32,841 nt of DNA from a virus. The position numbers and the translations under genes were made by a program. Positions 980-24,442 of this stretch are shown here, one piece after another. Positions within the stretch are counted from its first letter, which is position 1; every line of letters begins with the position of its first letter. The stretch is taken from IMG/VR virus record IMGVR_UViG_3300042556_002188, positions 1 to 32,841 of that record; one strand, written 5' to 3'. A model generated the notes under the pieces. That model saw only the letters and a program-made list of their open reading frames with translations. It was not told the DNA's origin and ran no database searches.

Positions 980-1304
980 CCAGCCGCAGTATCAGTGCGC
1001 CAGGTGTCAGTGGTTCGATGCTGTCGATACGTATCACGGGCTGTGCCGGAAGGATCTACCACGCTTTGCGGGTGGCGGCTCTCAGGCGGCGGCATGGCCC
1101 CTGGTGTTCAACCCCAAGATTCATTGGTGTGGCCAGTTCAGCCCCAAGCGCCACGCCCCCTGGACGGCAACGACAAGTGTCATCGACCTACTGAATGACG
1201 CCATCAATGGCGTGGACATCCCACCCCCCACCGGCCACACCCACCCCCGCCCCTGCAGCATCTGCCGCAGGGAGGACTGTACGGTGATCCATGCATGCGA
1301 ATGA
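966..1304 (+). CDS. Cys-rich zinc-ribbon-like phage protein
   Basis: A 112-residue protein starting at ATG 966, inside the upstream gene; a GTG at 972 is an alternative. The N-terminal half has the pattern CARCQWFD...GLCRK...WP...WCGQFSPK, a four-cysteine arrangement seen in small phage and plasmid proteins and presumed to bind zinc. After a linker, the C-terminus repeats the CSICRRED module of the preceding gene. Function is unknown; a nucleic-acid or protein-binding adaptor is a guess. The stop overlaps the next start as ATGA (1301-1304). Confidence 0.65.
   Translation: MPVSDQPQYQCARCQWFDAVDTYHGLCRKDLPRFAGGGSQAAAWPLVFNPKIHWCGQFSPKRHAPWTATTSVIDLLNDAINGVDIPPPTGHTHPRPCSICRREDCTVIHACE
1233..1283 (+). 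repeat. 51-bp direct repeat, copy 2 (3' end of the next gene)
   Basis: Second copy of the block at 908-958, 50 of 51 bases identical and read in the equivalent frame, encoding the C-terminal GHTHPRPCSICRREDCT module of the gene ending at 1304. The sequence before the block is unrelated except for a proline-rich stretch, so only the gene ends are shared. Confidence 0.95.
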
Positions 1305-1489
1305 CGGCGGCCACGCTCACGCCAGCAGAGCGCGAGCTGTACGAGGAGCGGGCTGCCATCCGCGAATTCGAGGGCGGCCTGCCACGCGCTGAGGCGGAAC
1401 GGGCGGCGCTGGCGGATGTGCTGCGGATGCGGCAGGCGCTGGGTGGCGACAGTGCAGGAAGTACACGACTGGCCGATGCGGCACGGTAG
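1301..1489 (+). CDS. small LTPAERE-type hypothetical protein
   Basis: A 62-residue protein; ATG 1301 is chosen because it forms an ATGA overlap with the previous stop. An in-frame ATG at 1295 is the alternative. The sequence LTPAERELYEERAAIREFEGG followed by LPRAEAERAAL resembles a small helical protein family common in phages and conjugative plasmids, with no known function. It has no membrane segment. It is the last gene before the non-coding stretch in front of the terminase. Confidence 0.6.
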   Translation: MTAATLTPAERELYEERAAIREFEGGLPRAEAERAALADVLRMRQALGGDSAGSTRLADAAR

Positions 1490-1636
1490 AAATTACACAG
1501 TGTCACCTAGGGAGGACGTCACCAATCTCTGGCGACTTAGGGCAGATGACCACCACGGTAGCCTCGAACATGCGAGCGCCAGTCAAACCGAACGCAAATC
1601 CAACTTTCCGTACATCAGATAGGTAGGAATTACACC
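1487..1636 (+). other. non-coding stretch before terminase; candidate cos/pac or promoter region
   Basis: About 147 bases without a convincing gene, visibly richer in A and T than the surroundings. A 12-base motif TAGRAATTACAC occurs at its left end (1487-1498, where TAG is the stop of the preceding gene) and at its right end (1624-1635, directly before the terminase ATG). In cos and pac phages the packaging site lies beside the small terminase gene, so the repeats could be terminase-binding sites; this is inference. No good sigma70 promoter pair was found. Confidence 0.35.
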
Positions 1637-2131
1637 ATGGGCGCACGAGGAAGCGGGGGGCATGGCCGCGGCGGGCCAGCCAAGCAGGAGGCGCAGCGGG
1701 GGCTGCAGGACACGACGGCCGACTGCGCCGCCCCGGAAGGCATGAGCGCGGCCGCGCTGGAGTACTGGCACTACTTCGCCCCGCTGCAGGTGAAGCGTGG
1801 GCTGCTGACGGAGAGCAGCCGCCTGGTGCTGCGCAACTACTGCCAGCTGCTGGTGGAGTGCGACCGGGTGCAGGCCGAGCTGGCCGAGAGCAAGCCGCTC
1901 ATTTTCTCGACCACGGTGGACGGGGCCGGCAACGAGCATCCCAAGGTGCAGGCCAACCCGCTGATCGGGTTGCGGCTGCGGCTACAGGCCCAGCTGCACA
2001 CGCTCGAGAACGACCTGTGCCTCAACCCAGCCACGGCGCTGCGGCTGCCGGCGGTGGCCGAGCCGGAGGTGGACCCGCTGGACGAGTGGGCCACGGGCAC
2101 GACGGGCCGGCGCATGAAGGCGGTGAAGTAG
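1637..2131 (+). CDS. terS: terminase small subunit, P27 family
   Basis: A 164-residue protein, normal length for the P27-type small terminase. The Gly/Arg-rich N-terminus (MGARGSGGHGRGGPAK) is followed by a helical part with the family pattern: a Trp-containing helix (EYWHYFAPLQ), GLLTESSRLVLRNYC, an A/E-rich helix, NPLIGLRLRLQAQL, and a C-terminal LCLNPATALRLP that corresponds to the family's L-x-P-x-S-R segment. It recognises phage DNA and recruits the large subunit for packaging. It sits four bases upstream of the large terminase. The start follows GGTAGGAA, an acceptable ribosome binding site. Confidence 0.85.
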   Translation: MGARGSGGHGRGGPAKQEAQRGLQDTTADCAAPEGMSAAALEYWHYFAPLQVKRGLLTESSRLVLRNYCQLLVECDRVQAELAESKPLIFSTTVDGAGNEHPKVQANPLIGLRLRLQAQLHTLENDLCLNPATALRLPAVAEPEVDPLDEWATGTTGRRMKAVK

Positions 2132-22234: not shown

Positions 22235-22311
22235 CACCGGGCGCGGGCCACCTTCCCCGAGGTGCTCCCGGTGCCCGCCCTCCGCAGGCTGGGCGCAGGC
22301 GTGGGGGCGGG
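22235..22311 (+). other. structured non-coding segment between lysis and adhesion genes
   Basis: The 119-base gap 22227-22345 can fold strongly. CACCGGG (22235-22241) pairs with CCCGGTG (22267-22273), enclosing CACCT/AGGTG (22249-22253 with 22260-22264). Next, CCCGCCC (22274-22280) pairs with GGGCGGG (22305-22311). No T-run follows, so a standard intrinsic terminator is not shown; it could slow transcription or protect the 5' end of the next message. Confidence 0.4.
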
Positions 22312-22345
22312 TCCGCAGTCTTAGACGCAGGACAAGGAGAGACAC

Positions 22346-22756
22346 ATGGCCGGATTCGTGTTCAACGAGGGTGCGGAATCACTGCAGGACAACTCCATTG
22401 TGTGGGGCAGCGACACGATCCGCGTGCGCCCGGTCCTGGCATCGGCGCAGGCGGCGATCGACAAGGACGCCACCAGCATGACGGGCCTGGGCTCGACGGG
22501 CTACGACGTGACGCTGGCGAGCAAGACGCGGACGAAGGACACCACCAACGACCGGATCGTGTACGACGCGGCCGACTTCGTGTTCCCGGCAGTCGCGGCG
22601 ATCGGCGCGATCGACCACTTCATCGTGTTCAAGTTCGTGTCCAACGACGCCGGCAGCACGCCGATCGCCAAGGTCGAGATGACCTCCGTGACTCCCAACG
22701 GGGGCGATGTCAACGTCACAATCAGCTCATCGGGGCTATTTTATACGCAGCAGTAG
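22346..22756 (+). CDS. small virion-like protein with a replaced 3' end
   Basis: A 136-residue protein with a good ribosome binding site (AAGGAGAG). It is beta-rich (DNSIVWGSDTIRVRPVLASA, HFIVFKFVSNDAGSTPIAKV) and ends in VNVTISSSGLFYTQQ. The family is unknown; position among putative adhesion genes suggests a virion surface role. The last 13 codons use many A/T-ending codons unlike the rest of the gene, and a second copy of this end with phage-like codons lies at 23331-23369, after the inserted HNH gene. The present 3' end therefore appears to have been imported. Confidence 0.65.
   Translation: MAGFVFNEGAESLQDNSIVWGSDTIRVRPVLASAQAAIDKDATSMTGLGSTGYDVTLASKTRTKDTTNDRIVYDAADFVFPAVAAIGAIDHFIVFKFVSNDAGSTPIAKVEMTSVTPNGGDVNVTISSSGLFYTQQ
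22718..22756 (+). repeat. imported copy of gene 3' end, upstream of HNH gene
   Basis: Encodes TISSSGLFYTQQ and stop. Compared with 23331-23369 (TISASGLFYTQQ), 11 of 12 residues agree but most codons differ at the third base, for example CTA TTT TAT ACG here against CTC TTC TAC ACC downstream. The protein is conserved while DNA is diverged, so the copies come from different lineages rather than from a recent duplication. Confidence 0.85.
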
Positions 22757-22774
22757 GCTTTTCTGGCCAATTTG

Positions 22775-22806
22775 CTGCAGTTCTGTGAACTGCGGAGATG
22801 TATAAT
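22775..22806 (+). promoter_or_regulatory. hairpin and TATAAT box before the HNH gene
   Basis: GCAGTTC (22777-22783) and GAACTGC (22787-22793) form a perfect 7-bp stem with a TGT loop, extendable by two pairs. TATAAT, a perfect -10 hexamer in otherwise GC-rich DNA, lies at 22801-22806, eight bases before the HNH ATG. No good -35 hexamer is at the right distance, and a transcript starting here would have almost no leader. Promoter function is uncertain. Confidence 0.35.
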
Positions 22807-22813
22807 TCTTGGC

Positions 22814-23329
22814 ATGTCTAACAGGTTAGATGGCAAGCCAAGAACGTTTGCAGACCGATCGTGTAAGCGATGCGGGAAGACGTATACGCCAGGCGGGGCC
22901 AATGCGCGATGGTGCTCGCTGGAGTGCCGGCGCGGCACGTCTGAATGCAGGCAGTGTGGCCGTAGATTTATTGCGAGTCGCCACACGAAGAAGCTGTTTT
23001 GCTCCTCGGCGTGCTTCTACGAGAACGCCGCGCCAACTGGCACGGTCAAGCCGTTTGGTGGGTATCTGATCGTGAAGGTGCCGCCGGGCACACCCGGCAC
23101 GCGAATGTACGGGGCAAACGGGCGTAGGTGGATGTTTCAGCATCGCTACGTGATGCAAGAGGCCCTCGGGCGACCGTTACGTGCGCACGAGAGTGTTCAC
23201 CACAGGAATGGCGACAAAAAGGACAACCGTCTTGAGAACCTTGAACTCTGGAAGAAGCGATCGCACGGCGCTGGTGTGCGCCACGCCGACTATCACTGCC
23301 CTGGATGTCGATGCCACGAAGCGCAATAG
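22814..23329 (+). CDS. free-standing HNH homing endonuclease
   Basis: A 171-residue protein. Residues ~15-80 hold Cys pairs of two zinc fingers (CKRCGKTYTPGG, CSLEC, CRQCGRRF, CSSAC). The nuclease part is of the HNH_3 type: HRYVMQEALGRPLRAHESVH followed by HRNGDKKDNRLENLELW gives the HH, N and H catalytic residues. The C-terminus is Cys/His-rich (CPGCRCHEAQ). The gene is A/T-richer than its neighbours and separates a gene from a leftover copy of its 3' end, the mark of a mobile homing element. ATG 22814 is the start; no clear ribosome binding site is seen. Confidence 0.88.
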   Translation: MSNRLDGKPRTFADRSCKRCGKTYTPGGANARWCSLECRRGTSECRQCGRRFIASRHTKKLFCSSACFYENAAPTGTVKPFGGYLIVKVPPGTPGTRMYGANGRRWMFQHRYVMQEALGRPLRAHESVHHRNGDKKDNRLENLELWKKRSHGAGVRHADYHCPGCRCHEAQ

Positions 23330-23330
23330 C

Positions 23331-23369
23331 ACGATCTCGGCGTCGGGCCTCTTCTACACCCAGCAGTAA
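23331..23369 (+). pseudogene. orphan 3' fragment of the gene at 22346
   Basis: Beginning one base after the HNH stop region, these 39 bases encode TISASGLFYTQQ and TAA, with G/C-ending codons that match the phage. They are probably the original 3' end of the upstream gene, displaced when the HNH element inserted. No ribosome binding site or start lies close by in this frame, so it should be untranslated. Confidence 0.75.
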
Positions 23370-23378
23370 GGAGACGAG

Positions 23379-23756
23379 ATGGCCGCCCCTTCGATGACAT
23401 TCGCGACGGCCGGAAATATCCGGTCGTCCGCTTCGCTTGCGGCGAGTGCGTCCGCAAGCAACAACGTCGATTACTCCACCAAGATCGAGGGCCAGGTCAC
23501 GGTCAAGAGCACTGGCGGCGGCACGGTGGCGTCTACCAACGGATGCCGGGTGGAGTTTCTGCCGCGCTACGGGAGCACACCAACCGACTCCACGGTCCCG
23601 GTGCTGTCCTACACCATTCCGACCGTGGTGAGCACAGCGGCCAGCAAGACCTTCTATCTCGGCACGGGCAAGTACGTGGTGAAGGTAACGAACCTCGACG
23701 CCACGAACGCGATCACGGTCGAGATCACGGGCGACACGGTGGACGGGATCGCCTGA
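23379..23756 (+). CDS. small beta-rich virion-like protein
   Basis: A 125-residue protein with AGGAGA before the ATG. It is Ser/Thr/Ala-rich (SSASLAASASASNNVDYSTK), then IEGQVTVKSTGGG, CRVEFLPRYGSTPTDSTVPV and YVVKVTNLDATNAITVEITG, a pattern of short beta strands like an Ig or jelly-roll fold. No family is recognised. A one-base overlap with the lectin-like gene suggests joint expression and a virion role. Confidence 0.6.
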   Translation: MAAPSMTFATAGNIRSSASLAASASASNNVDYSTKIEGQVTVKSTGGGTVASTNGCRVEFLPRYGSTPTDSTVPVLSYTIPTVVSTAASKTFYLGTGKYVVKVTNLDATNAITVEITGDTVDGIA

Positions 23757-24442
23757 TGGCTGGGCTGTGGATTCCGCGTCCGACACAGCGGCCGGCGGCG
23801 GGGGCGCGCATCAATTGGGCGCACCCGTTGACGGTCGGCCTCGGGGACTATTGGGATTGGGGGCTGGGCGACACGTACAACCTGGCCTACCCGCAGGATG
23901 CGACGTTTCCGGGCACCACGCGCCCGGCGCTGCGTGGGGACGGGTTCTACATTTCCAACGGTGACGGCGTGCAGTACGCACGGCATGACCGGGCCTATGG
24001 GGTAGGCGCGGACTTTTCGCTCCTTCTTGAGATGACATGGGTGTCGAGCGACAGCACGTACAGTTGCGTGCTTGCCGCAGGGGGAGCCGGGGGCAACCTG
24101 GCGCTCTACCTCAACACGTCGGGCGAGATCCGCTTTTTCACGCTGGCAGGGTCGAACGCGGACGCGCTCAATCGCCCGGCGTTTACCGCGAATGTGCGCC
24201 GGCAACTGGTCATCACGCGGCAGGGCAGCACAGTGCAGGCCTACGTGGACGGCGCGACCTCTGGCGCGTCGTGGACGAACAGCGGCAACAGCGACAACGG
24301 GTACACCAGCATAGGGTTTCGGCAGGTGGACAACGCCAGGATTGTCGGCACCTACCACCGTGCCGCGATCTGGCATCGGGCGCTGTCTGCGGACGAGATT
24401 CGCGATCTCGCCGCTGAACCCTACGCGCTCTTGACTCGGTGA
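23756..24442 (+). CDS. LamG/concanavalin A-like lectin domain protein
   Basis: A 228-residue protein starting in an ATG that overlaps the upstream stop. The N-terminus MAGLWIPRPTQRPAAGARIN with a Trp-rich stretch leads into a LamG-like fold at ~65-220: FSLLLEMTWVSSDSTYS, LALYLNTSGEIRFFTLAG, RQLVITRQGSTVQAYVDG and the typical closing AAIWHRALSADEIRDLAAEP. This closing signature is shared by Laminin_G_3 domains in phage tail and bacterial surface proteins. Glycan binding on the host surface is the likely role. Confidence 0.8.
   Translation: MAGLWIPRPTQRPAAGARINWAHPLTVGLGDYWDWGLGDTYNLAYPQDATFPGTTRPALRGDGFYISNGDGVQYARHDRAYGVGADFSLLLEMTWVSSDSTYSCVLAAGGAGGNLALYLNTSGEIRFFTLAGSNADALNRPAFTANVRRQLVITRQGSTVQAYVDGATSGASWTNSGNSDNGYTSIGFRQVDNARIVGTYHRAAIWHRALSADEIRDLAAEPYALLTR

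Follow-up and report, generated by a model that had tools for sequence, protein, structure and literature searches.

The window analyzed here comprises an entire IMG/VR virus record (32,841 bases), and the question it raises is how an HNH endonuclease gene comes to lie between two copies of the 3' end of another gene. All of the features described in it are on the plus strand. The upstream gene, at 22346-22756, encodes a protein of 136 aa and ends in TISSSGLFYTQQ with a stop codon. After an A/T-rich spacer at 22757-22813, the HNH ORF runs from an ATG at 22814 to a TAG at 23329 (171 aa), and right behind it, at 23331-23369, is a second copy of the gene end, TISASGLFYTQQ with its own stop. The nucleotide identity of the two copies is 27/39, and among the 12 codons 4 are identical, 7 are synonymous, and 1 is a replacement (S/A). 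The preliminary description of this DNA had noted two gene ends around the HNH gene with the protein kept and the codons differing, and that is correct, with 11 of the 12 residues the same. It had also called the upstream copy A/T-richer, like the HNH gene. The first half of that holds, as the upstream copy and the spacer both have 46% GC against 59% for the downstream copy and a window mean of 68%, but the comparison to the HNH gene does not, because that gene at 59% GC is under the window mean yet less A/T-rich than the copy in front of it.

The interrupted gene belongs to family phrog_644 (E = 3e-14). The AlphaFold model of its product has a pLDDT of 92, and its best PDB match is the mycobacteriophage Bxb1 tail tip, 9d93_Ra, with probability 1.00, TM 0.79 by target and E = 1.7e-3, so the predicted fold matches a tail-tip protein. 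The last residues of the model form the final strand, and the C-terminus is strongly conserved among the HNH-less relatives compared. Hence, an insertion at this place must supply an end. At the threshold used, no homolog of the window's own gene turned up in the annotated phage collection, and a search of prophages in bacterial genomes with the same gene gave one distant relative only. As for a donor of the window's A/T-rich end, searching viral contigs for the pattern GLFYTQQ plus stop yielded HNH-less homologs and chance matches and nothing else. One contig, L193, has a second, inverted copy of the host gene that is possibly an assembly palindrome.

Which of the two ends is the original can be read from an HNH-less relative, L002 (IMGVR_UViG_3300042924_003399), which has the same tail-tip protein at 99% identity. 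Its gene is continuous and ends in the downstream copy, ...GATGTCAACGTCACGATCTCGGCGTCGGGCCTCTTCTACACCCAGCAGTAA. The resident part of the window gene, 22346-22719, is the same as L002 up to ...GATGTCAACGTCAC, with GTCAC as the last matching bases, and the match takes up again from CACGATC at 23330, with 98% identity over the next 813 nt. The following gene, at 23379-23756, is unchanged flank continuous with L002 5421-5798. The insert is therefore sharp, amounting to 613 bp, and consists of the re-spelled 3' end (22720-22756, missing from L002), then the HNH gene up to its stop codon. Since matching to L002 resumes in the downstream copy, which is identical to L002 over the end, that copy is the native one, now detached from its gene, and the upstream copy arrived with the insert. 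The bases CAC are present at both junctions, at 22717-22719 and again at 23330-23332 as the first bases of the displaced native sequence, and represent either a target duplication or microhomology; with only these 3 nt shared, the window junctions fit end-joining as well as homologous repair.

A second empty site is provided by L030, which has the HNH gene, and its relatives L188 and L189, which do not. The L189 flanks are 93% and 92% identical to those of L030, and it is the downstream copy alone that runs on into native flank. The right junction of L029-L032 falls at W^N (TGG^AAY, plus or minus 1), and target bases complete the HNH stop codon of L029, L031, and L032, a placement by which the HNH ORF ends where the target begins. 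The window junction is about 1 codon further upstream than these in the aligned proteins. From these comparisons, we consider it very likely that a free-standing HNH element inserted in the last codons of the tail-tip gene and brought a recoded end that keeps the gene intact. This is what the preliminary description had proposed, an element arriving near the 3' end with a diverged, protein-preserving replacement, and its expectation that an HNH-less relative would have a continuous gene ending in the downstream copy is borne out by L002, with flanks matching to both junctions. The arrangements it had named as contrary evidence, an HNH-less relative having both copies or having the upstream end alone, were not seen among the relatives compared.

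The HNH protein scores 38.8 bits against PF13392 (HNH_3), for which the curated cut-off is 24.8, and also matches PHROG HNH families. It has zinc-finger-like CxxC motifs, and the HNH residues are intact, with H129, H130, N132, N138, and N142 invariant. A structure search with the protein gave nothing significant; among the weak matches is 1u3e (E = 0.83), which is I-HmuI, likewise an HNH homing endonuclease, and one that is intron-encoded. The window ORF is free-standing, as there is no Rfam intron match and a stop codon precedes the HNH gene. Its absence from near-identical alleles and its transfer with flanks are what is expected of a free-standing phage homing endonuclease. Within the spacer, at 22801-22806, there is a TATAAT exactly 7 nt ahead of the HNH ATG. 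L029 and L032 have this box at the same distance, and other members have weaker matches. The position of the box suggests a leaderless transcript from a promoter of the element's own, and no full sigma-70 type promoter scored in 22600-23500, nor inside the substitute end.

Relatives of the HNH protein were gathered from viral contigs and their surroundings compared. The succession of a gene with a substitute end, an HNH gene, and a displaced native end is found in 7 further contigs (L027, L029, L030, L031, L032, L033, and L035), all with phrog_644 as the target family and the second copy of the C-terminal peptide right behind a separate HNH stop. Once the search let the native end lie inside the HNH ORF, an in-frame variant surfaced in which the displaced native end constitutes the HNH protein's own C-terminal residues and stop. 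This variant occurs at phrog_11667 (L084, L089, L090, L093, L288, L318, L354, and L357), at phrog_644 (L131 and L133), at a polynucleotide kinase (L081), and, in a weaker case of four residues only, at the major capsid protein (L154). The different target genes thus number at least three, and probably four. The phrog_11667 ends show co-variation, in that a contig with TIRTV, IRSV, or TIRTI in one copy has it in the other as well, and the start of the next gene is still overlapped by the native stop (TAATG). This overlap is seen in L280, L288, L318, and L354 of that family; fusion of the native end to the HNH ORF retains it, possibly preserving translational coupling. At the kinase locus of L081, the HNH-borne end (..GDF) is closer to the kinase of phage BRock than is the substitute (..GAF).

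The two-copy arrangement is not due to chance. A matching gene end at a score of at least 23 is present for 13 of 114 distinct HNH ORFs having an upstream gene, as compared to 0.19% of mismatched pairs, although the resulting P of 1e-19 overstates independence, because the loci include related contigs and represent fewer independent events. Six contigs with an HNH gene after the same target gene (L004, L028, L034, L039, L118, and L120) have no native copy behind it, so retention is not universal. HNH_3 genes with an HCxxCxC tail and no visible native copy are found behind phrog_644-like genes in L004, L118, L120, L129, L132, and L141, which could reflect loss of the native end or an insertion after the stop. 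L133 has a further end copy (2170-2188, GTG TTC ACC CTT GCG TGA, VFTLA plus stop) directly after the gene's stop, and the HNH gene after this extra copy itself ends in GVFTLA plus stop, for three copies in all, possibly from two successive invasions.

Among cultured phages, the HNH gene is found behind a phrog_644 gene in mycobacteriophages Jabbawokkie, Zapner, Soul22, and Renaud18, while the HNH matches in Pan2, Kabocha, and PAE1 are not annotated behind such a gene. Jabbawokkie, Soul22, and Renaud18 share 93-96.5% identity in the gene body, 100% over its last 96 nt, and 99.5-100% in the HNH gene. The HNH-less phage Avani has the reverse relationship to Jabbawokkie, with the body 99.4% identical and the end 65.6%. 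The complete 96-nt end is found in exactly 8 records, representing the 4 phages, all with this HNH gene, and in no HNH-less phage record. The nucleotide comparisons thus show the re-spelled end and the HNH gene traveling as one unit. Three HNH-less phages, Shauna1, Kingsley, and Phanphagia, are identical to the first 44 nt of the 96-nt end (44/44 for Shauna1), after which the 16 remaining codons compared to Shauna1 are 13 synonymous, 1 replacement (I to V), and 2 equal. In the mycobacteriophages with the HNH gene, the native end is gone and the neighboring gene is also different, which indicates that replacement there is complete.

The character of the recoding is seen in 18 substitute/native pairs, where 77 codons are synonymous, 13 are replacements, and 38 are equal, so these are recoded ends that keep the protein, as a home-and-rescue arrangement calls for. 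In ends of the SGIF type, 6/6 substitutes spell the Ile as ATA, a codon found for it in 0/71 HNH-less genes and at 0/35 Ile positions in the bodies of those six genes; the 6/6 does not count as six independent events, since the SGIF elements are related. ATA fails to separate substitutes from natives in phrog_11667. In several members, the onset of recoding is abrupt and lies at or close to the junction, and in L031 and L081 it is the codons near the junction that are re-spelled, with most of the remaining end identical. Over all long pairs, changes come to 30/38 nearer the junction versus 23/40 (P = 0.054), which is no more than suggestive of a bias toward the junction. An HNH-less phrog_11667 contig, L359, has an end, AGA ACC GTC TGA, that resembles the substitutes of L089, L090, and L354, and could be a scar after HNH loss, or a donor.

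A mechanism has to account for the insertion, end substitution, co-transfer, recurrence, and recoding that genome comparison establishes. We propose that the mobile unit has three parts, namely a recoded copy of the 3' end that includes the stop codon, a short spacer, and the HNH gene. Its insertion would push the native 3' end behind the HNH gene while the substitute end keeps the target gene whole, and the displaced end would become either an untranslated remnant, as in the window class, or the last residues and stop of the HNH protein, as in the in-frame class. Most likely, the native end of an HNH-less allele is cut by the HNH enzyme close to the insertion point, and repair with an element-bearing phage as template would copy the unit in, with the conserved gene body as the left homology arm and the native end behind the HNH gene as the right one. 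Sequences following the gene end differ widely between phages, so that native end may be the only conserved right-hand homology available.

The recoding would then block renewed cutting of the repaired gene. An ordinary homing element destroys its own cut site by inserting into it. With a restored gene end beside the same junction, the site would be rebuilt unless recoded. An enzyme cutting at the insertion point would thus call for recoding, and the sequence pattern agrees with this. That an unmodified copy would rebuild the site, that recoding is abrupt near the junction, and that ATA is at 6/6 against 0/71 all strengthen the case for immunity, a possibility that the preliminary description had also raised, and we judge that the enzyme probably does cut the native end and that recoding probably prevents self-cutting. 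With somewhat more reserve, we lean toward a broader proposal: that phages carry natural home-and-rescue drives, in which HNH enzymes would be directed at conserved genes in their 3' coding ends, bring recoded ends that resist cleavage and keep those genes working, and recruit the native end as C-terminus and stop and as homology arm, across several unrelated target genes.

The same arrangement could be approached by passive mosaic recombination, in which an HNH gene and the diverged end of its donor moved together via the conserved 3' end, with no immunity involved. The divergence of the substitutes from the natives is of a kind that a homolog in a more A/T-rich genome could show, a substitute could be just the diverged end of a donor phage without selection for immunity, and the mycobacteriophages gained part of an ordinary end too, namely the 44 nt identical to Shauna1. 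Against this, the window native end abuts the HNH stop with nothing lost, L031 and L081 are re-spelled near the junction with the rest mostly identical, the change between Jabbawokkie and Shauna1 after the 44 nt is abrupt, and there is recurrence at several target genes. We regard passive recombination as unlikely. Less likely still is that the recoding serves mainly expression, with substitute end and spacer forming the HNH promoter and immunity incidental. The TATAAT just upstream of the HNH gene of the window, L029, and L032, and its weaker counterparts elsewhere, would favor that, but the box is in the spacer, outside the recoded codons, and 22600-23500 scored no full sigma-70 type promoter. 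The codon-by-codon silent changes are also left unexplained.

Two further explanations were rejected as very improbable. A group I or II intron or an intein would restore the native gene on splicing, and removal of the insert would indeed exactly restore the empty gene. A search of 22300-23800 gave 0 Rfam matches at E ≤ 1, hence no catalytic RNA core, and the non-ORF part of the insert is under 100 nt, which is too short for a group I core. The intein version is contradicted by an insert that starts by completing the protein with a stop codon. The other is a tandem duplication of the gene end followed by HNH insertion between the copies, which would put end copies on both sides of the HNH gene, as found. 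The empty relatives L002 and L188/L189 have a single copy, however, the diverged copy is the upstream one and not the downstream one, and the substitute end moves with the HNH gene.

Returning to the reading of an HNH element with a recoded rescue end, the closest known systems are mobile ORFs of fungal mitochondria that come with a foreign C-terminus, described for atp6 of Allomyces macrogynus and for atp6, atp9, cox2, and nad3 of Glomus (PMC3630166). In those, as in the phages, an endonuclease ORF is situated in the 3' part of a gene, a diverged, protein-conserving C-terminus takes over from the native one, which comes to lie behind the ORF and agrees with an insertion-free relative, and the divergence is likewise silent (PMC3630166). 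The full Allomyces atp6 set of substitute C-terminus, endonuclease ORF, displaced native end, and empty relative is present in the window with L002 and in L030 with L189. The fungal elements differ in being mitochondrial, having LAGLIDADG or GIY-YIG endonucleases, and having ends of tens to hundreds of nt (PMC3630166), while the phage elements have HNH_3 and not LAGLIDADG or GIY-YIG, with ends of 4-12 codons, longer in the mycobacteriophages, and a native end that often serves as the C-terminus and stop of the HNH protein.

Among phages, the HNH enzymes of the T4-like Mob family are similar in having genes outside introns and flanking sequence that is co-transferred, but the free-standing enzymes of T4 have been described as cleaving at distances of hundreds to thousands of bp from their own genes, and MobE/MobA insertions split their target genes (PMC2988022). 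The elements here sit in the last codons of the target and leave the gene whole. The synthetic HomeR drive likewise combines a nuclease placed toward the 3' end of an essential gene with a re-coded gene end and flanking homology arms, but it is engineered CRISPR in flies with cleavage resistance designed in (PMC7968924), where for the phage elements we infer it. Our literature search found the fungal mitochondrial precedent and no phage case; most subscription journals were outside its scope, and novelty is not proven thereby.

Phage homing endonucleases are known to spare the host gene by residing in introns or inteins, by an intergenic position, or by splitting a gene whose product still assembles. 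A recoded end would be a further route, and explains how free-standing HNH genes can be situated on conserved coding sequence, in tail-tip, kinase, and perhaps capsid genes, and leave function unimpaired. Silent divergence at the last codons of a gene beside an HNH gene is a signature that can be scanned for. These elements would be a natural parallel to engineered rescue drives, with their long-term loss, re-invasion, and scars readable from phage genomes, and the cultured mycobacteriophages with and without the element allow direct testing. At the locus where Jabbawokkie has its HNH gene, Mycobacterium phage Cornie (L272) has a GIY-YIG endonuclease instead (1289-1756, minus strand), with no substitute end, and its upstream gene keeps a native-type end.
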